Both the position numbers and the translations under genes were made by a program. From Chryseobacterium indologenes (GTDB lineage: Bacteria > Bacteroidota > Bacteroidia > Flavobacteriales > Weeksellaceae), in NCBI RefSeq assembly GCF_018362995.1, contig NZ_CP074372.1, positions 1,426,001-1,490,000 of the forward strand: a stretch of 64,000 bases of DNA. Direction: 5' to 3'. Under the pieces are notes generated by a model. The model did no database searches, was not told the DNA's origin, and was given only the letters and a program-made list of their open reading frames with translations. Below are positions 29,491 to 38,849 of the stretch, piece after piece; position 1 is the first letter of the stretch, and every line of letters begins with the position of its first letter.

Positions 29491-31200
29491 TTAATCAATA
29501 ACCGGAAGTGACCCCAGCGTAAATTGCACGGTTTTTTCCTGATAAATATTTGGATTCATTGCATTGGGCACTACTAAAGTTAAATCGGTTCTTTCACCGG
29601 GCTCGTAGTTTTTTAAAGCATCTGTAAATGTTTGGGCATCATATACGGAATAAGAGCCCACTTTTTTAACAAGGGTACCAGCCAGTATATTATTAAGATG
29701 TAAAGCTCCGCCTACAGTTGTTGGACCTATTAATACTCCTTTTACATTCTGAAGAACGGTATTATATCCATTATAAACATACAGCTGTACATCCCATGGA
29801 ATAACATCTATAACTCCTACAGAAGCTCTGAACTTCACGTCTTCTTTGGCAATGACAGGTTGAGTAACCGCATGCTGCACCGATATTGTTTTCGTATGAC
29901 TGTAGTCTTCCACCGTTTTAGTCATTTCAGTACTGTTCAACACCCTTTTAAAGGAAGTGTTACCGCGGGCTGTATTATTCCCCCACCTTACTCCATTGGC
30001 TATAAATCCGATATAATCTTTTCTGCCAAGAGCGGCTACAGCAGCTTCGATATTGGGAGTGAGATTAGGATCATTTTTTTGCAATGACTCTGCAAACTGT
30101 AAATGTAAATTCTGCAATTTTTCATTTCCCTCCGCTTTTGCTTTTTCGGCTGCCTGAAGGTGATTTTTAAGGGCTTCTTCCTGAGAGATATCAGGAAAGA
30201 ATTTTTCTTCAAATTGATAAATCATATCATCATCCGCATCATACATTTCGATTCTTGTATTATTAATGTTTTCAGCATTATACTGGCTGTCAACCTGCTG
30301 ATTGAATGAAGACTTCATCGATTTTCTACTGCTTCCTAATCCAAGAAATGCCCATCCGCTTGATTTCTGGCTCACGCTGCTCTTTTGGGCATCACTTAAA
30401 AATTGGTTAACAATCGTACTGCCATCTATATGGGCATTAATATAACTGTTTTTAGAATTCTTAAATTTGTAACTGACAGAGATATCACCATTTCCGTTGG
30501 CCAACAGATTCTTAACATATTCCGTAGGATTTTCAATACTTATATTTTTAAAGCTTTTATTTCCAACAAGTGTTCCTGGGATGCGCTTGCTGTAAACGGT
30601 CTCCCCTCCTGCTTCTACAATGAATTCTACCTCGGTAGGTGAAATGATCTGGCTTTGAAAATTTGTATTATAATCTTTTATCAATTGGTCCTGAGGGGCC
30701 AGCATGGTTGTTTCATATTGCTTGGCTAAGGAAAAGAAATGATTGGTCAATCCCGGATTGGTCATCATGTAAGGCGTCAGCATTGGCTGTCCGTTCGTAT
30801 TTTTTAAAATTGGCGGGTAAAAAGCGGCTATTGTTGTACTTCTTATGGCAGCACAAATAGATGCTTTCTGGCTTTCATTGGGTAATGCCAGCTCCTGTGT
30901 TACCGGAATAATCAAAGTCCGGATCTGATCTGAACCCTTATAAGTTTCATTTCCTTTATTATCTATATATTTAATATTATTGACATCAAATTTAAGAATA
31001 GGCAATATAAACACCTTAGCAACAGTACCCTTAGCAACATTCTCATAAAAGCCGTGGGTATTGTAAAGCGCATATTTTCCTTTACTATCTATGGCTACAT
31101 AATTCTCGACTGAAAATTTGTTGGAATTCGGTGTCACTTGCGACCAGATAACTCCGGTATTGGCAAGCAGCAATACAATGGTTACATAAAAGTTTTTCAT
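29491..31200 (-). CDS. Large secreted protein with C-terminal PDZ-like region
   Basis: A 569-residue exported protein starting at the ATG at 31200, where the signal peptide (MKNFYVTIVLLLANTGVIWS) begins; the upstream ATG at 31248 would bury it. The N-terminal half is unrecognised. The middle has an Ala/Glu/Lys helix (EEALKNHLQAAEKAKAEGNEKL region). The last 110 residues (VKGVLIGPTTVGGALHLNN, GTLVKKVGSYSVYDAQTF, ERTDLTLVV) have the order of a PDZ domain. It has no protease motif. It is monocistronic with its own terminator. Function unknown. Confidence 0.7.
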   Translation of the reverse strand: MKNFYVTIVLLLANTGVIWSQVTPNSNKFSVENYVAIDSKGKYALYNTHGFYENVAKGTVAKVFILPILKFDVNNIKYIDNKGNETYKGSDQIRTLIIPVTQELALPNESQKASICAAIRSTTIAAFYPPILKNTNGQPMLTPYMMTNPGLTNHFFSLAKQYETTMLAPQDQLIKDYNTNFQSQIISPTEVEFIVEAGGETVYSKRIPGTLVGNKSFKNISIENPTEYVKNLLANGNGDISVSYKFKNSKNSYINAHIDGSTIVNQFLSDAQKSSVSQKSSGWAFLGLGSSRKSMKSSFNQQVDSQYNAENINNTRIEMYDADDDMIYQFEEKFFPDISQEEALKNHLQAAEKAKAEGNEKLQNLHLQFAESLQKNDPNLTPNIEAAVAALGRKDYIGFIANGVRWGNNTARGNTSFKRVLNSTEMTKTVEDYSHTKTISVQHAVTQPVIAKEDVKFRASVGVIDVIPWDVQLYVYNGYNTVLQNVKGVLIGPTTVGGALHLNNILAGTLVKKVGSYSVYDAQTFTDALKNYEPGERTDLTLVVPNAMNPNIYQEKTVQFTLGSLPVID

Positions 31201-31390
31201 GGTTTTATATTTTAAGATTGAGAATAAACCTGTTATTGATGATTCCATGGTAAAATTACATGTAAATCAGACCCGTGTCCATGGCACTTTTGTGTAATAT
31301 TTCAGCTGAAGGACTTCTTCATATGCCGTTGGATAATCGTTTATAATCATAGTGGCATCAATCTTACATCATTCTTTAAAAGAGTATTGA

Positions 31391-31614: not shown

Positions 31615-31714
31615 AATATCCTAATTATATCATATAGTTTGATCTTTAGGCTCATTTTAGCTGTATAATCCGCCATTATAGAAAAACTTTATCATTTTAT
31701 TGAAGCTTATTAAT

Positions 31715-32545
31715 ATGTACGTTATCACAGACCAATTGAAGAATTTAGGATTCAGCATCAACACATTAAATAACATTATACAGAGAAATAATAATAAAAG
31801 AAGTTTTAATACACTTGAGTATTTTTGCATCTACATCATTATAGAGGACATTACTTTGGAAGTTGAAAATATTCCACATCCCATAAAAGGTGGTCATATC
31901 GCATTTGTAGGCCCTCAAAAACAAATTGTATTTGGGGAAACCAAACGGGGCGAGGTTTATATCATTGCATTTTCTTCAAGCTTTTATGAAAGATCAGGAA
32001 AAGACAGCATGTTTATCAATTCAAGGCTTTTTTTCAATTATGATTCTGATATTTTTATAGCACCTTTTGAAAATATTAAAGAGATGAACGTTGTCTTTAT
32101 GGGAAGAATGCACAATTTTCAGCATAAGGATGAAAGTCTGTATGTTTCCGCTGCCCATAATGCTATTGAAAGATTAATTCTGGACGCATTTTTACATATC
32201 CCGGCTGAAACACTGAAAAAAGATATCAAATTTGATTATCTCCACTACGTCAATAGATTCAAAGTGCTTTTGCAGAGAGACTATAAAAAGGCTAAAAAGG
32301 TCTCCCACTACGCTAATGAACTCAATATCACGCCAAGAAAGCTCACTGAAATGACCGAGTATGTTTTGGGAAAGACGGCCAAACATATTATCATTGAAAA
32401 ACTGATCAATGAATGCAAAAAATCCCTTAGCTTCTCAGGCAACAATATTTCTGAAATTGCTTATGATCTGGGATTCAGTGATGAAGGAAATTTCAGTAAT
32501 TTTATTAAAAAACATACAGGAAAAAATCCCTCAGAAATGAAATAA
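31715..32545 (+). CDS. AraC-family regulator of the pilus-like cluster
   Basis: A 276-residue AraC-type transcription factor; start at the ATG at 31715 (MYVITDQLKNLG). The N-terminal 165 residues form a sensing domain with no strong family match. The C-terminal domain has two helix-turn-helices (VSHYANELNITPRKLTEMTEY, then NISEIAYDLGFSDEGNFSNF) and ends PSEMK. The gene is immediately upstream of, and co-directional with, the five pilus-like genes, the first of which starts 55 bases after its stop. It is the obvious candidate regulator of them; this is inferred from position. Confidence 0.88.
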   Translation: MYVITDQLKNLGFSINTLNNIIQRNNNKRSFNTLEYFCIYIIIEDITLEVENIPHPIKGGHIAFVGPQKQIVFGETKRGEVYIIAFSSSFYERSGKDSMFINSRLFFNYDSDIFIAPFENIKEMNVVFMGRMHNFQHKDESLYVSAAHNAIERLILDAFLHIPAETLKKDIKFDYLHYVNRFKVLLQRDYKKAKKVSHYANELNITPRKLTEMTEYVLGKTAKHIIIEKLINECKKSLSFSGNNISEIAYDLGFSDEGNFSNFIKKHTGKNPSEMK

Positions 32546-32561
32546 TGTAAAAATAATATTG

Positions 32562-32569
32562 TATTTTTG
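32562..32569 (+). promoter_or_regulatory. -7 promoter box before minor pilin-like gene
   Basis: TATTTTTG fits TAnnTTTG, 31 bases before the ATG at 32601. There is no matching -33 box at 17-19 bases. Confidence 0.35.
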
Positions 32570-32600
32570 GATAAATAACAGATCAGTGAAAAATTAATAT

Positions 32601-32966
32601 ATGTTAAAAAGATATATTTTTTCAGTAATTTTTCTTTTCGTTTCCATGAGTATCTATGCGCAGACAGATGATGTTCAGGTGAACGTAAGACTTTATCCTA
32701 CCCAAATGCTGGCGGTTGGAGGTGACAGCGAAATGGTTGATGATACTGATGAGAGTATCCAGCCGGAAATAAACTCTGTTATCATTTCAAGTCCATCAGG
32801 CTTTCAGCTGGGAATTCAACAGGATGATAAGGATGAGTATAATCTTATTAAAAGTCATGATGGAGTTATCGAAAAAAAATTCATGATAAATCAAAAAATA
32901 GATAAAATTATAAAACAGTTTAAAGATAAGTCTACTTTTATGATGTTAACTTTAATCTCTCAATAA
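32601..32966 (+). CDS. Minor pilin-like secreted subunit
   Basis: A 121-residue protein with a signal peptide (1-20, ending SIYAQ). The mature start DDVQVNVRLYPTQMLAV aligns with VTLNVRLKPIQTLIV of the next gene; SVIISSPSGFQLGI aligns with LSIYSTGGFQVKV; and both end in LISQ/IISQ. It is therefore a short paralogue of the major pilin-like subunit, about 50 residues smaller, with an acidic insertion after residue 42. It could be an anchor or a terminating subunit. It lacks Cys. Confidence 0.65.
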   Translation: MLKRYIFSVIFLFVSMSIYAQTDDVQVNVRLYPTQMLAVGGDSEMVDDTDESIQPEINSVIISSPSGFQLGIQQDDKDEYNLIKSHDGVIEKKFMINQKIDKIIKQFKDKSTFMMLTLISQ

Positions 32967-33266
32967 GCTGGTCTGAAGCTTATTTACTATGCATTTTATA
33001 TTATTTTTTTAAATTTCCAACCTTTTGTTTTTGGTAAATTGATAATAATATAACATTGATTTAACAATATTAACAATATTTTTAATTTTTAATTAACTTA
33101 AAAGTTTATTTCCCTTCATAAAATACTATTTTTCAGCAAGATTATTTCCAAAACCAAATTTACAAATCTTTAGTACTTTTTCACAAAACAAGTACCTATA
33201 CCTCTTTCTAAATTTGCACCTGAAAAAAAACAAGAAGTAATATACTATTAAAACTCCAGTTATTTT
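32967..33266. other. 300-base leader upstream of the major pilin-like gene
   Basis: AT-rich region with no ORF. It holds the -7 box and the AAGTACCTA word near its 3' end. The long gap suggests that the major subunit is transcribed separately from the minor one. Confidence 0.45.
33190..33216 (+). promoter_or_regulatory. Major pilin promoter: operator word plus -7 box
   Basis: TAAATTTG (33209-33216) is a perfect TAnnTTTG box. The normal -33 position lacks TTTG and instead carries AAGTACCTA (33190-33198), the word also found upstream of the AraC regulator. This fits an activator-dependent promoter. The start codon is at 33267. Confidence 0.45.
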
Positions 33267-33791
33267 ATGAAGAAATATATTGTAGCCTCAATGTCGCTAT
33301 TTGGTTTTGTTGCTTTAAAGGCTCAGCAAAATGTAACTCTAAATGTTAGATTAAAACCTATCCAGACTCTTATCGTTAATCCTGCTCAAAAGGTTGTCAA
33401 TTTAGACTATAAAACCAAAGATGACTATGCCAACGGAGTATCCTCTGTAAATGCTGATCATTTAAGCATCTATAGCACAGGAGGTTTCCAGGTTAAAGTA
33501 AAAGCTGCCAATGCAGTATTGCAAAGCGGAGCAAAGAATATCCAGGCTAATACTATTCAAATTAAGGCCAGTGCAGGAACTGAAGTTCTTAACGGAGCTC
33601 AGTATGCACAGAATGTACAGCTTTCTAATAACGATGCAATATTAGTCACCTCTGCAAACGGTGGTGTAGACAAAAAAATTAATATTGAATATAAAGGAGC
33701 AGGAGCTAATGCTTACCTTGACAATTATATTGCAGGTCAGGATCCTACCGTTTATACAACAGAGTTAACGTATACTATTATTTCTCAATAA
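33267..33791 (+). CDS. Major pilin-like secreted subunit
   Basis: A 174-residue exported protein (signal 1-19, ending LKAQ). The mature part has no Cys and is almost all predicted beta-strand, with QNVTLNVRLKPIQTLIV at the start, DYANGV at 53-58, and the last strand TVYTTELTYTIISQ. The same strands occur in the minor subunit and twice in the adhesin-like protein of this cluster. The final strand resembles the C-terminal strand of archaic pilins of the spore-coat-U type. A strong hairpin follows the stop and may raise the yield of this subunit. I infer that it is the main fibre subunit. Confidence 0.7.
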   Translation: MKKYIVASMSLFGFVALKAQQNVTLNVRLKPIQTLIVNPAQKVVNLDYKTKDDYANGVSSVNADHLSIYSTGGFQVKVKAANAVLQSGAKNIQANTIQIKASAGTEVLNGAQYAQNVQLSNNDAILVTSANGGVDKKINIEYKGAGANAYLDNYIAGQDPTVYTTELTYTIISQ

Positions 33792-33818
33792 GTAATTTAA
33801 GTATTATATAAACTACTC

Positions 33819-33853
33819 CAGATAAAGTGTTACAATTTGTAGCACTTTATCTG
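33819..33853 (+). terminator. Hairpin after major pilin-like gene (partial terminator or stabiliser)
   Basis: CAGATAAAGTG (33819-33829) pairs with CACTTTATCTG (33843-33853), an 11-bp perfect stem, and TACA/TGTA inside the loop can pair further. Only a weak T-rich tail follows. In pilus operons such a hairpin after the major subunit sets subunit-to-assembly-protein ratios. Confidence 0.65.
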
Positions 33854-33876
33854 TACTTTAATAGCAAAGTATAATA

Positions 33877-34680
33877 ATGAACCGATCTTATATCTTCATT
33901 TTATTCTCTTTATTCCTTTTCTGTTCTCAAATTAATGCTCAAACAGGTGTATCGGTGTCTCCACCCAGGCTTTATTTTGAATCTGATGCAGGAAAAAGCA
34001 TTACCCAGAAGGTAACTGTAACCAATGTAAGTGCAAAAAATTCTCTGGACATGGCTGTCAGTTTAGGTGACTGGGAATATAATGAAACAGGAGAAAACAA
34101 AATGTCTCCTGCCAATACGCTGCCAACATCCTGCGCCAGCTGGATATCAATAAAAAATGAAGATACCTATTTTACCTTAGCTCCGGGGGAAAGAAAGGAT
34201 ATTGATGTCACCATTACTCCTCCCGCTACATTATCAGATCAGATGTTGGCTCATACTGGTGTACTGTATGTGAGTCAGATGAATCCTGTGAATGATGTAG
34301 ATAACAAAGGTGCCAATATAAAAGTAAGTATCCGTTCAGGAATTAAACTCTTTCATAAGCTAACTGCCAAAGCCACCAAAAAAATTGAGATTCATAATCT
34401 TACTTTAGCTCAATCCAAAAAAGATCTTACCATCTTATTTGAAAATCAGGGCAATATATGGACCGATGGAAAAATACAAACGGAACTTGTCAATACAGAA
34501 AATGGCAATAAAGTATCGCTTGATCAGATTATTTTCTATACCATGCCCGGAAATAAAAGAGAATTGAACATCCCTCTTCCTGCAACACTTTTAAAAGGAA
34601 AGTATACTGCATCAGTAGTGATTGATTATGGAGACAACAATAATCTGGAGCTAGCAGAACTGAATTTTACACATGAATAA
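33877..34680 (+). CDS. PapD-like periplasmic pilus chaperone
   Basis: A 267-residue exported protein (signal 1-21, ending INAQ). Residues 23-150 form an Ig-like domain with chaperone hallmarks: VSPPRLYFESDAGKSITQKV, VTVTN, and FTLAPGERKDIDVTITPP. A second Ig-like domain spans about 155-267 (LTILFENQGNIWTDG). The two-domain layout and the N-terminal pattern match PapD/archaic fimbrial chaperones, which hold pilin subunits by donor-strand complementation. The stop overlaps the adhesin-like gene by 8 bases. Divergent; the assignment rests on motifs plus context. Confidence 0.72.
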   Translation: MNRSYIFILFSLFLFCSQINAQTGVSVSPPRLYFESDAGKSITQKVTVTNVSAKNSLDMAVSLGDWEYNETGENKMSPANTLPTSCASWISIKNEDTYFTLAPGERKDIDVTITPPATLSDQMLAHTGVLYVSQMNPVNDVDNKGANIKVSIRSGIKLFHKLTAKATKKIEIHNLTLAQSKKDLTILFENQGNIWTDGKIQTELVNTENGNKVSLDQIIFYTMPGNKRELNIPLPATLLKGKYTASVVIDYGDNNNLELAELNFTHE

Positions 34681-35698
34681 AAAACTGTGTCTTATCCTGC
34701 TATTGATCTCCGTGAGCTGCTTTTCACAAATTTCATACAGCTCATGGGTAAACAGCTATCTGCAGATTAATTCTTATAACGGCAATACAAATCCTGACGC
34801 ATACACGCTTACTTTAGCGGGGAACGGGAATATCAACATGCCTTATTGGAGAGTTTCGGTAAGATTGAAGCAGCCTATAATGTCCAATCAGGGGAATTAT
34901 ATTTTACCTGCGAATAAAATTTCTTTTCAGCCGGTTTCATCATCAGGAAAGGCCTACCCTAACCCGGTTCCGTCTATCCCGCAAATCGGGATGCCGCTTA
35001 ATGTGATTTTGAAAGAAAGTCAGGAGGTTTTCTTAATTCCTCAGTCAAATGCTGCATTATATAATCAGCCAGCACAACCGAATGGTTATTATAGCCTTCA
35101 GATTAAATACAGCATGAATCTGGCTGGAGGAACCTATCTCGGAGCCTATCCAGCCTGGATTACTTTTACAGCGCCATTACAGTTTACGGCCTATGATCAG
35201 TATAACAATATTATCGGTACTGTAGATCATAATTTCCAGTTTCAGATCGGCACGCTTTCAGGAACTCCTACGGATATTCCGGAGATGTCTATGAAATTTG
35301 GAGCTGCAGCCATGAACGGTAACCTGGAATTTAAAAACATGCAGGATTACGCAAATGGAGCCAGCGTAACTTATTCCAATGCTCTTATTGTAAAAAGCAA
35401 TACAAAGTATCAGATCAAATTGAAATCCCTTCAGACCCAGTTCAGTTCTTCTTCCGGCAACTTTCTGCCTCTTGATGCTGTACAGCTTAATCTGATTCCT
35501 ATTTCAGGCAACATGGGAACGGCGTATACTGTTTTACTAAGTACGGTGCCACAGCTTGTCGCTGCCGGTAATTCTACACAGAATGCTGATGTTTATTATG
35601 ACATGAAGTATTCCACCAAACCTAATGATGAAAGATTTATCAATGCCAAAGCAGAGGATTATACAACAACCCTTCAATTCGAGATTACGCCTCAATAA
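34673..35698 (+). CDS. Two-domain pilin-like protein, probable tip adhesin
   Basis: A 341-residue exported protein (signal 1-18). It is built from two pilin-like halves: domain A (about 20-195) with NYILPANKISFQPVSSSG and a final strand in PAWITFTAPLQFTA; domain B (about 200-341) with DYANGAS (225-231), NFLPLDAVQLNLIPISG, and final strand DYTTTLQFEITPQ. Domain B aligns with the major subunit (DYANG, then YTTELTYTIISQ). Two-domain subunits of this kind are tip adhesins in chaperone-usher pili. It overlaps the chaperone gene by 8 bases and precedes the usher-like gene by 6. Confidence 0.65.
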   Translation: MNKKLCLILLLISVSCFSQISYSSWVNSYLQINSYNGNTNPDAYTLTLAGNGNINMPYWRVSVRLKQPIMSNQGNYILPANKISFQPVSSSGKAYPNPVPSIPQIGMPLNVILKESQEVFLIPQSNAALYNQPAQPNGYYSLQIKYSMNLAGGTYLGAYPAWITFTAPLQFTAYDQYNNIIGTVDHNFQFQIGTLSGTPTDIPEMSMKFGAAAMNGNLEFKNMQDYANGASVTYSNALIVKSNTKYQIKLKSLQTQFSSSSGNFLPLDAVQLNLIPISGNMGTAYTVLLSTVPQLVAAGNSTQNADVYYDMKYSTKPNDERFINAKAEDYTTTLQFEITPQ

Positions 35699-35704
35699 TT
35701 TATA

Positions 35705-38503
35705 ATGCTTCATAACAGGCTGTTCAGGAAAATAATGTTTTTTATTCTGATCCCGTTTTCCGTTTGGATTTCGGCTCAAACTGGTACAGCTATAAGTATG
35801 GAGATCCGCAATGAACCCAATCGGGTTAATCCTAATATTGTAGAGATTCTGCTTGTTCTGAAAAACAATGAAAGCAAACATTTTAAAGGCAAAGTTGAAG
35901 TTAAGACACCCAAAGGTTTCAGAACAATTTCTGACAATAATGCTGAGATCGAACTGAACCCCGGCCAGAACCTGTTTATTCCCATCAAAATACTGACCAG
36001 CAACACGATCGTTTCCGGTAAAGCAGATCTCATATTTACCATTACTGATGAGAAAAATCAACAGGTCATAAAAAAGAGTCTCTCCTATGTGGTGACGGAG
36101 AATAACAATATGAAGGTGACAGCTGAAAATCCTGTTGTCTATATGGGAACATCTAAAGATTCTCTGGAAGTCCGGGCAAGGGTTTCCAATTTAGGAAACA
36201 AAAGGCAGCATGTTACCATTGTATTTAAAATTCCGGAAGCTACCCAAAAGAACCTTTTTATCGAAAAAAAAGGAACTATCGACGTGCAGAAAGATTCTGT
36301 ATTTGTTTTTCGCTTCCTGCCTTCCGGAAATCTGCTTAAGAGCTCTCAGTTTACGGTTAATATTGCAGGTTTCAGAGAACCGGACAAGGAAATTTTCGGT
36401 AATACTTCTATATCGGTACAAAATGTTTCTTCTACCCAGCGTTATCAGGATATGGAGTTCGATCTGTTTTCAAATTACAGTAAAAATACCATTACTGCCA
36501 GTTACAGGCGGGTCGGCAACAACACAGATATGTATCAGCTGATAGGATCAGGCGGCTTTAACCTTCCTTCGGGCTACATGTTTATCCGCGGTAATATTTA
36601 TACGCTGAACAATCAAAGTGACCCTGTTGTGAGCAATACCTATGTGTCTTATCATAGGGAACAAAATGAGTTCACCTTAGGGAATATCAGTAAAATTATG
36701 GAAGTTTCGTTATTTGGAAGAGGAGCAGAATATGCATACACTTCTCCGGATAAAGACAAGAAAATAGAAGTAGGTTTTGTAGATCAGAGTTTCAGCCTTA
36801 TTGAAAGGAATTCTTTTTTGAAATACGGATACGGGTTTTATGCCAGGGGAATAATGGGTGCTCAAAATGCCTCTAAAAATTTCTCAGCAACCTATGTTTT
36901 TAAAAATGACCCTTTTGAGAAAGCGGATCATCATGTATTCGGTACGGATATTCAGTATTCTTTCAACAAGGATTGGAAAATGAATTCCAAAGTATACAGC
37001 GGTCTGAGTTATTACGAAAATACACACCTTACCAAGCCTTCCCTGGCTTTGGAAACACAATATTCAGGAACCATTAAAAAAGTCAATCTGAATGGAAACT
37101 ACTTTTACAGCAGTGACTATTATCCCGGGAACAGAAGAGGAATGCTGCAAATACAACAGAATTTTTCAACCCCCATTTTTGAAAATCATTATTTGTATGC
37201 GAATGTAATGGTCTCTAACTTTTCACCAAAATTTTACTCTTATATCAATGATTTCAAATCCAATACGATAAGAGGAGATATTGGAATCAACTTCGCGAAA
37301 AGGAAAAATTTCGGATTTGCTGTCGGCACACAATATCAGGAGGAAAACTCTAACAGCTACAATAACTTTTTTGATACCTCAGGAAATCAGGAATTACAAA
37401 CACTGAAAGCCCTTAGGATCAGCCAGAATACAACATGGATCAGTAATAACAGAAAACACTCTACATTGCTTGCAATGGAAGCAGGAGCAGTTAATTATCC
37501 GGATGGCCACAATGCAGAATATCAGATGAAGATCACCGGAAACTACGGTTATAAATGGTTCAACATCAACGGAATATATCAGCATGGAAGCTATTATCTC
37601 TCCGAATTTGCTTCATCCAGAAATTTCAATGGAAACATCCTGTATAAGAAATTTTCAGTATCCGCCTTTGTTAACAAAAACCTGTTAAGCGAAAAGCTCA
37701 ATATTACTTCGGGATTATCTTATACTGATGATATTTTATATGGAAAGTCTCCTTCAGGATTTGTCAACCTGAAATATACAAAGGAAAGATATGGAGTATT
37801 CCTGAATTCTTCCTGGTTCAATTATTCTTCCAACAATTTCAGCAACAATTTTTTCACTGTTGAAGCAGGCGTCACACTGAATCTTCAGCCTAACAGACTT
37901 ATTGCCAGTAAAAAGGGAGAAATAACGGCATTTGTATTTTATGACAACAACAATAACAATGTATATGATGAGGGCGACCAAAGCGCTGAAAATTATATCA
38001 TTATGATCAATAATATTTCTTTCAAAACCAATCAGAGTGGTAAAATTGTATACAAAGCAATTCCGTATGGTAACTATATGCTCAAGCAGGTAATCCAGCA
38101 GGGATGGTATTACAACGAACTGGAGTTTGAAGTGAAAAAAAGCAGTTATTCTCTTCAGGTCCCACTCCATCAAAACGGAACCATGCTGGGAAAAATCGCG
38201 TATGAATTTGATCCTAAAAAAGCATTGGAATTTGAGCCTAAAACAGCGGGAATTATCTTCAACATCTATGATAAAGATAAGTTTTTACAGCATGTAGTTA
38301 CCGACGACAATGGAGAAATCGGGTCTTTCCTTGGATCTGGAAATTACAGAATTGAACTTGTAGAAAGTTCATTACCTGCCAACACCTATTCCGAGAAAAC
38401 AAACCAGGAATTCACAGTTCAGGCAGGAAAAATAATACATCTTGAACCGTTTGTCATCAAGGTTTCAGAGAAAAGGGTGCATGTTAAGAAGTTTGGAAAT
38501 TAG
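35705..38503 (+). CDS. Usher-like outer-membrane assembly protein
   Basis: A 932-residue exported protein (signal about 1-24). Residues 28-240 are two Ig/NEW3-like domains (VEILLVLKNNESKHFKGKV, VRARVSNLGNKRQHVTIVF). Residues about 245-745 are a large predicted beta-barrel rich in aromatic-ended strands. Then comes a prealbumin/SdrB-like domain (ITAFVFYDNNNNNVYDEGD at about 740-760) and a second small beta domain to the end. Alpha-type ushers (TcfC/CooC) also combine a barrel with such a domain. Chaperone, pilin and adhesin genes lie directly upstream. The N-terminal domains are not those of FimD, so usher function is an inference from context. Confidence 0.65.
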   Translation: MLHNRLFRKIMFFILIPFSVWISAQTGTAISMEIRNEPNRVNPNIVEILLVLKNNESKHFKGKVEVKTPKGFRTISDNNAEIELNPGQNLFIPIKILTSNTIVSGKADLIFTITDEKNQQVIKKSLSYVVTENNNMKVTAENPVVYMGTSKDSLEVRARVSNLGNKRQHVTIVFKIPEATQKNLFIEKKGTIDVQKDSVFVFRFLPSGNLLKSSQFTVNIAGFREPDKEIFGNTSISVQNVSSTQRYQDMEFDLFSNYSKNTITASYRRVGNNTDMYQLIGSGGFNLPSGYMFIRGNIYTLNNQSDPVVSNTYVSYHREQNEFTLGNISKIMEVSLFGRGAEYAYTSPDKDKKIEVGFVDQSFSLIERNSFLKYGYGFYARGIMGAQNASKNFSATYVFKNDPFEKADHHVFGTDIQYSFNKDWKMNSKVYSGLSYYENTHLTKPSLALETQYSGTIKKVNLNGNYFYSSDYYPGNRRGMLQIQQNFSTPIFENHYLYANVMVSNFSPKFYSYINDFKSNTIRGDIGINFAKRKNFGFAVGTQYQEENSNSYNNFFDTSGNQELQTLKALRISQNTTWISNNRKHSTLLAMEAGAVNYPDGHNAEYQMKITGNYGYKWFNINGIYQHGSYYLSEFASSRNFNGNILYKKFSVSAFVNKNLLSEKLNITSGLSYTDDILYGKSPSGFVNLKYTKERYGVFLNSSWFNYSSNNFSNNFFTVEAGVTLNLQPNRLIASKKGEITAFVFYDNNNNNVYDEGDQSAENYIIMINNISFKTNQSGKIVYKAIPYGNYMLKQVIQQGWYYNELEFEVKKSSYSLQVPLHQNGTMLGKIAYEFDPKKALEFEPKTAGIIFNIYDKDKFLQHVVTDDNGEIGSFLGSGNYRIELVESSLPANTYSEKTNQEFTVQAGKIIHLEPFVIKVSEKRVHVKKFGN

Positions 38504-38615
38504 ATCAAGAGAGATTCTTTTTTCATTCTAAAAAGATTTAAAAATAGTTTATATTGCCTGATTGTTGATTGAGAATTTAAGATTTTGTATTTTAACTAAA
38601 TTAAAAGATAAAACT

Positions 38616-38849
38616 ATGTTTGACCATGTAGAACTAACAAACACAAAGCCAGCAGAAAGCGGATACTATTTTGTTAAATGGAGTAAAAATGAAGAAATGC
38701 TCCTATTATACATCGATTATTTAATGAAGAATGGTGAAGAATTTTGGTGCTGGAGATACACAAAAAGTGATAATGACCCAAATGATATACATTTTGATAT
38801 TCAAAACCCAGAGTATCCTCTGTTTTCAGAAAGAATTCCAGAAAAATAA
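38616..38849 (+). CDS. Small conserved cytoplasmic protein
   Basis: A 77-residue protein starting at the ATG at 38616 (MFDHVELTNTKPAESGYYFV). Trp-rich segment GEEFWCWRYTK and KWSKNEEMLLLYIDY are notable. There is no signal peptide or membrane segment. Acidic, probably monomeric. No family recognised. It has its own terminator and stands alone between the pilus-like cluster and the tRNA gene. Confidence 0.6.
   Translation: MFDHVELTNTKPAESGYYFVKWSKNEEMLLLYIDYLMKNGEEFWCWRYTKSDNDPNDIHFDIQNPEYPLFSERIPEK

Follow-up and report, generated by a model that had tools for sequence, protein, structure and literature searches.

A probable chaperone-usher-type pilus cluster with an unusual usher in a Chryseobacterium genome

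Can a set of genes that standard family models barely recognize encode a chaperone-usher pilus in a member of the Bacteroidota? The question is raised by a locus in Chryseobacterium indologenes, within a window of 64,000 nucleotides (the whole stretch of DNA analyzed, positions 1426001-1490000 of C1, a one-contig genome of 5.0 Mb). In a scan of genome contigs, the closest named relatives of the locus were Chryseobacterium species (Weeksellaceae, Bacteroidota), with identity up to 97%. An initial annotation of this DNA had described five co-directional genes downstream of an AraC-type regulator, and every claimed reading frame was found, at 32601-38503. The cluster very probably specifies a pilus of the chaperone-usher type that belongs to a Bacteroidota branch and has an unusual usher. 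Its genes and their parts are as follows.

31700..32545, + strand: AraC-family regulator, putative activator of the pilus genes (TTG start, first ATG at 31715; HTH_18, E 6.6e-16)
32601..32966, + strand: minor pilin-like subunit, 121 aa (family in 42/76 loci)
33162..33217, + strand: conserved promoter module (two ACAA half-sites, then the -7 element TANNTTTG)
33267..33791, + strand: major pilin, 174 aa (pilin alignments A4 and A10; A10 matches PDB 9ikk/9ikj)
33327..33359, + strand: candidate donor strand, major pilin residues 21-31, QNVTLNVRLKP (conservation)
33877..34680, + strand: PapD-like periplasmic chaperone, 267 aa (hhalign against nine K-12 chaperones)
33967..33969, + strand: chaperone R31 (aligns with FimC precursor R44)
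34312..34353, + strand: chaperone G1-like strand, residues 146-159, with I148, V150, I152 and K157 (alignment)
34673..35698, + strand: putative two-domain tip adhesin, 341 aa (AlphaFold2; structural matches)
34730..35260, + strand: adhesin N-terminal beta-sandwich domain, residues 20-196 (model)
35279..35695, + strand: adhesin pilin domain, residues 203-341
35705..38503, + strand: usher-like outer-membrane protein, 932 aa (AlphaFold2; Foldseek)
35792..36442, + strand: usher-like protein, two N-terminal beta domains, residues 30-246 (model)
36485..37885, + strand: usher-like protein, beta-barrel, residues 261-727 (model, DSSP strand count)
37913..38464, + strand: usher-like protein, two C-terminal beta domains, CTD1/CTD2-like, residues 737-834 and 851-920 (SpaA; model)

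The products have diverged so far that nearly the whole gene set escapes standard family models. Only two Pfam matches in the cluster pass the cut-off, HTH_18 in the regulator and SpaA at the C terminus of the 932-aa protein; NCBIfam gave nothing further above the cut-off for the cluster proteins, and Pfam and NCBIfam searches of the window's proteins gave no PapD_N, Usher or SCPU match. The scan of genome contigs identified 76 distinct homologous loci, a count that leaves out the window, L001 and L002. These loci belong to Chryseobacterium, Flavobacterium, Myroides, Paenimyroides, Weeksella, Mesonia, Sinomicrobium, Arenibacter, Niabella and Sphingobacterium, to one Sphingobacteriaceae strain, and to metagenome-assembled genomes named Leadbetterella, Proteiniphilum and Weeksellaceae. 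Conservation of the neighborhood had been proposed as a check, and the genes expected of a chaperone-usher pathway do stay together: in 72 of the 76 loci, the usher gene is preceded on the same strand by the adhesin gene, then by the chaperone gene, and a major pilin gene lies within 6.5 kb. The four exceptions are contig ends with less than 2 kb of contig upstream, and the order pilin-chaperone-adhesin-usher is kept in all 69 loci with at least 5 kb upstream. Because the order is so consistently kept, the cluster is not a chance assembly; furthermore, the flanking genes vary between groups of relatives, and the gene set therefore behaves as a unit.

To relate the cluster to known pili, its proteins were compared with an Escherichia coli K-12 set drawn from eight regions (9 chaperones, 7 ushers and 13 pilins; the yfcU pseudogene, the pilins ycbV, yadK-M and yfcP-R, and other K-12 clusters are outside the set). 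A profile of the window's chaperone, 32 of the 73 related chaperones and the chaperone of L002, a second locus in the same genome (A2, 34 sequences in all), aligned with the profile of the nine K-12 chaperones (A5) with an hhalign probability of 96.7% (E 4.7e-10, 215 columns); here and below, hhalign E-values refer to single comparisons, not database searches. Against the same K-12 chaperones, the adhesin and pilin profiles reached 0.6% and 0.1%. R31 aligns with R44 of the FimC precursor and K157 with K148, both of them invariant among the nine K-12 chaperones and presumably equivalent to R8 and K112 of the mature protein, the residues with which a chaperone holds the C terminus of its subunit. 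In 73/73 relatives both residues are kept, and each of positions 148, 150 and 152 holds I, L, M or V. Judged by its sequence, then, the 267-aa protein is what the initial annotation had taken it for, a PapD-like chaperone with the characteristic Arg, Lys and alternating hydrophobic G1 strand. Its Pfam matches are of Ig/Fn3 type and below the cut-off, and PF00345 has one weak match elsewhere in the genome (C1:1983116, E 0.247).

The 341-aa protein is modeled by AlphaFold2 with a pLDDT of 91.6 as two domains, the second of which is a pilin domain. Six of its first 10 Foldseek matches are chaperone-usher pilins or adhesins. The N-terminal domain, presumed to bind a receptor, resembles EcpA, CfaB and the UcaD lectin domain, with GH123 and integrin domains scoring about equally; the best structural matches of the pilin domain are 9ikj/9ikk. 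The adhesin family is represented by A3 (the window's adhesin and 61 of 74 adhesins) and the major pilin family by A4 (the window's major pilin, 38 of 81 major pilins and L002). Subunit strands that had been noticed as shared reflect real homology: the C-terminal domain of the adhesin family and the family of the 174-aa pilin align with an hhalign probability of 98.4% (E 7.6e-15, 136 columns). This alignment begins at pilin residue 32, and the N-terminal donor-like segment of the pilin, in which Q21 and L29 are invariant and V23, T24, L25 and N26 are at least 90% conserved (40 sequences), has no counterpart in the adhesin. An adhesin built in this way would sit at the tip of the fiber. The profile of the 121-aa minor pilin also picks up major pilins, and this protein could possibly serve as a terminator or base subunit. 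The window's pilins match no Pfam family even at E 1, and UniRef labels some close relatives DUF4402. One pilin relative, L109:822-1418, lacks the N-terminal donor-like segment that its neighboring pilin keeps, and because of that it may be a tip subunit or another special subunit.

Expression of the major pilin appears to have a module of its own. In 13 aligned spacers between the minor and major pilin genes (the window and 12 relatives), the module consists of ACAA, 13 bases, TTTNACAA, 22 bases and TANNTTTGC; the pattern was defined from these sequences, one of which (L018) does not match it, and its spacer was set to 18-25 for the searches. The 5.0-Mb genome contains it once, at the site listed above, and the reversed control pattern 0 times. 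The -7 element TANNTTTG, which lies 50 nt ahead of the major pilin ATG in the window, is the published Bacteroidota -7 element according to a passage of PMC6847099. Across the relatives, 37 of 76 loci have the module, and in each of them an in-frame ATG of the major pilin follows 35-54 nt after it; the reverse strand of the 76 loci never shows it. It is present in 25 of 30 hold-out loci that bear a minor pilin gene and were not used to define the pattern, and in 1/34 loci without a minor pilin gene. The half-sites form a direct repeat 21 bp apart, that is, two helical turns, a spacing typical of AraC-type sites, and an AraC-type gene lies upstream on the same strand in 50 of the 69 relatives with at least 5 kb upstream. 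The regulator probably acts at this repeat ahead of the major pilin gene. Against a simple pairing of regulator and module speak 5 of the 37 module-bearing loci, which lack an upstream AraC-type gene on the same strand; two of the five (L066 and L074) have one just downstream. The module came from alignment, not from the sigma-70 scan, which gave 9 sites versus 5.2 (sd 2.3) in shuffles and was not used as evidence; neither was the terminator scan (0 versus 0.4 in shuffles).

The wider pilin family is homologous to proteins of solved assemblies. A PDB search with A4 gave TLP-2 at E 0.16 only, below a virus capsid fragment at E 0.049 that was taken as a chance match. To follow the TLP-2 lead, 25 Bacteroidota pilins were picked by hand with the answer in view (A10), and this set matched 9ikk (TLP-1b, E 2.5e-8) and 9ikj (TLP-1a, E 7.7e-8) over 65 of 172 positions. 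Two results serve as checks on that choice: a single pilin of L109 matched the PDB TLP protein at E 4.9e-9, and the matching PDB piece, searched against a sample of 394 Bacteroidota genomes, hit only one genome (G320), where both matches are pilin genes beside a chaperone gene and an usher-like gene. The link from the window to TLP-1a/1b thus runs through intermediates, because A4 alone gives only E 0.16. The PDB entries, titled "Cryo-EM structure of TLP-1a" and "TLP-1b", are 16-chain assemblies of proteins of 236-237 aa, compared with 174 aa for the window's pilin; we take them to be the CryoSeek fibrils from pond water, of unknown source. Sequence-only PDB searches with the usher, chaperone and adhesin profiles (A1, A2 and A3) gave no trustworthy match.

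These pilin data bear on the alternative that the locus encodes a chaperone-usher-like secretion unit for the display of a short adhesive tip or a single adhesin complex, not a long fiber. Such a unit would fit the presence of only one or two pilin genes ahead of the chaperone gene in the window's family and the position of the adhesin gene, which adjoins the usher gene in 72 of the 76 loci. However, the pilin retains its conserved donor-like segment, the major pilin has its own promoter module in 37 loci, and distant pilin relatives form the 16-chain assemblies solved by cryo-electron microscopy. We consider a short tip complex improbable and a polymerized pilus the better account.

The least familiar component of such a pilus is the 932-aa protein. 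The initial annotation had read it as a barrel, and AlphaFold2 predicts a large one (pLDDT 85.7, pTM 0.63), with about 26 strands when DSSP elements are counted in the predicted model, between the two N-terminal and two C-terminal beta domains. The N-terminal domains had been called Ig/NEW3-like: two beta domains are indeed modeled there, but the NEW3 family is not listed, and FixG_C reaches only E 0.15, below the cut-off. Of the SdrB-like domain, little remains at the level of family searches (SdrD_B at the C terminus, E 0.01, below the cut-off), whereas SpaA matches there above the cut-off at E 1.7e-7. PF00577 matches neither this protein (E up to 1) nor any other in its genome (E up to 0.001), and by the tests run, the protein is outside the PF00577 usher family. 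Its model is nonetheless that of an outer-membrane barrel with C-terminal domains, and it resembles ushers. Foldseek ranks 1-8 are FimD and PapC chains (E 9.6e-16 to 4.0e-10). Residues 259 to about 730 align with PapC, FimD, LptD and porins, and the PapC and FimD alignments run on through the C-terminal domains to residues 918-921. The predicted barrel and the kept neighborhoods support the earlier proposal of an atypical chaperone-usher-type surface fiber. No outcome named beforehand as refuting that proposal was observed; for complete Ig folds in the subunits, this covers the adhesin model and, for the pilins, the N-terminal segment that the adhesin's pilin domain lacks.

Since LptD and porins align over the same stretch, the barrel could instead be an LptD- or porin-like outer-membrane protein, with the Ig proteins serving another surface complex. 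LptD-type and LptDE entries do appear lower in the Foldseek matches, but the best LptD-type match (4q35, E 1.1e-8, which we take to be LptD) is behind the best FimD match by about seven orders of magnitude in E-value. Together with the alignment of the C-terminal domains to PapC and FimD and the constant linkage of the 932-aa protein to a PapD-like chaperone, this makes an LptD- or porin-like role very unlikely.

Sets elsewhere in the Bacteroidota bridge part of the distance between this usher-like protein and classical ushers. In none of the 394 genomes does PF00577 exceed its cut-off; four genomes give weak matches, every one from a single family, f24 (L096-L105, L107 and L108). In the loci of this family, an usher-like gene (994-1505 codons) is accompanied by a chaperone-like gene and as many as four small genes with the look of pilin genes; in some of them, a protein of ~620 aa follows. 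The chaperone profile matches 8 of the 12 f24 chaperones, whereas the pilin profile matches one small gene, so that "pilin-like" is said there from appearance. In L098, the usher scores 20.1 bits with PF00577, below the cut-off, and two of the four small proteins match DUF4402 (PF14352) weakly (E 0.00097 and 0.068, below the cut-off). Alignments of 11 f24 ushers (A7) and 12 f24 chaperones (A8) were built from genes chosen by position. Between A7 and the K-12 ushers, the probability is 79.3% (E 1.6e-5), with the match covering the barrel's first half and presumably the plug region within it. The profile of the window's usher (A1, which comprises the window's protein and 60 of the 120 matches listed; 123 were found) matches A7 with 96.2%, over the C-terminal domains only, and eight other Bacteroidota ushers (A9) likewise match the f24 C-terminal domains (96.1%, from the barrel end onward). 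For the chaperones, A8 matches A2 with 98.8% and the K-12 set with 65.0% only. A chaperone of another family, f18 (L106:2094-3050), is exactly at the PF00345 cut-off of 23 bits; it lies beside repeated small pilin-like genes. Overall, A2 has matches in 37/394 genomes (in four of these, the only matching frames, of 541-1584 codons, are unlikely chaperones), and A1 matches 31/394, eight over nearly the whole protein and many others over the C-terminal domains alone. Chaperone-usher-like sets therefore occur here and there across the phylum, with the window's family forming one branch of them. The Arg of classical chaperones is not universal in the phylum, because several distant chaperones (L110, L111 and members of A8) have Thr, Lys, Asn, Ala or Ser at the R31 position.

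Several results count against a chaperone-usher assignment. The window's usher profile has no sequence similarity to the seven K-12 ushers (1.0% in the profile comparison); the link to them by way of f24 is indirect and partial. A plug domain within the barrel is a feature of classical, alternative and archaic ushers, and no plug-sized insertion is present in the modeled barrel, where the longest gap between strands is 20 residues (628-647). The superpositions are poor (TM by query, 0.21-0.29), and VIA gives a tie between LptD (16.0), PapC (15.7) and maltoporin (15.6). A marginal point is that the Foldseek rows directly after the FimD and PapC chains are a streptococcal serine protease and two axoneme chains (6.0e-10 to 1.9e-9). 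Profile comparison of the pilins with the 13 K-12 pilins found no sequence relationship. Finally, the key chaperone residues are not universal: the L002 chaperone has His at the K157 position, and in the f24 chaperones the Arg is present in 0/12 and the Lys in few, the missing Arg being again a marginal point that leaves our estimate unchanged.

Type V pili, in which lipoprotein precursors are assembled by a protease, are the usual kind in Bacteroidota and would be expected for this phylum, and the adhesin signal peptide does have a cysteine near its end (S-V-S-C); that cysteine is not conserved in every relative, however, and a type V pilus was rejected as scarcely credible because, by eye, both pilin signal peptides (of the 32601 and 33267 products) end in Ala-Gln without the cysteine of a lipoprotein signal, which type V pilin precursors carry. 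Type V systems are not known to include a PapD-like chaperone or a large barrel.

If the cluster is a chaperone-usher-type pilus, its assembly can be pictured as follows. Signal peptides would direct the products to the periplasm, where the chaperone would cap the incomplete pilins with its own G1-like strand (I148/V150/I152), R31 and K157 serving as anchors. The usher-like barrel would take up chaperone-subunit complexes and export the growing fiber tip first, beginning with the two-domain protein, which, having no donor segment, would be the tip adhesin. The major pilin would then polymerize by donor-strand exchange, inserting its N-terminal VTLNVRL strand into the preceding subunit, and the 121-aa pilin may end or anchor the fiber. 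We give even chances to a broader proposal, namely, that these sets form a further, Bacteroidota-wide class of chaperone-usher pili, that the usher of this branch has lost its plug and has its pore gated by the N-terminal domains instead, and that the same pathway assembles the TLP-1-type environmental assemblies.

The window's system is like classical pili (type 1 Fim and P) in its PapD-like chaperone with R8/K112 equivalents, its two-domain adhesin and pilins, its large barrel with two C-terminal domains and its clustered genes. Conversely, its usher has no sequence similarity to classical ushers, no plug-sized insertion and two N-terminal domains in the model, its pilins are unrelated by sequence to classical pilins, and its adhesin gene precedes the usher gene, unlike in classical pili. 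From archaic pili (Csu and CupE) it differs in that its proteins match neither the SCPU nor the Usher family; likewise, the weak DUF4402 matches of the L098 small proteins have no parallel in the window's pilins. In passages of PMC10104325, archaic pili are said to occur among proteobacteria, cyanobacteria and Deinococcota; according to the corresponding part of PMC9452303, classical and alternative pili are limited to beta- and gamma-Proteobacteria and archaic pili occur in a wide range of phyla, which that part does not name. The survey in PMC4793230 leaves out the chaperone-usher pathway, as stated in its available text, and the available part of PMC3796261 mentions Bacteroidetes only for type IX secretion. 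Among the matches listed in the open-access literature, no Bacteroidota chaperone-usher system was found. The earlier suggestion that the fiber might be undescribed holds only in part, as relatives of the chaperone already bear the names "fimbrial biogenesis chaperone" and "P pilus assembly chaperone PapD" in NCBI and JGI, and distant pilins have been solved. If the assignment is right, chaperone-usher pili, here as an adhesive fiber with E. coli pilus-like assembly, would extend to a phylum that passages of PMC10104325 and PMC9452303 do not mention as having them. It would also provide a natural plugless usher for testing pore gating, and solved assemblies taken to be of unknown source would be tied to a genetically tractable assembly machine.

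Next to the cluster, a 95-aa frame directly after the usher-like gene (38562-38849) matches Tad5, a Thoeris inhibitor, at E 0.017, below the cut-off and probably by chance. On the opposite strand beside the regulator, a 585-aa protein (29491-31248) has a signal-like N terminus and no family above the cut-off. L002, the second and diverged set in the same genome (C1:145437-148955), comprises a pilin of 181 aa, a chaperone of 266 aa and an usher-like protein of 934 aa with 22% identity to that of the window. In a relative (L113), a set of the L002 type is completed by two pilins and a 478-aa protein with pilin-profile matches.

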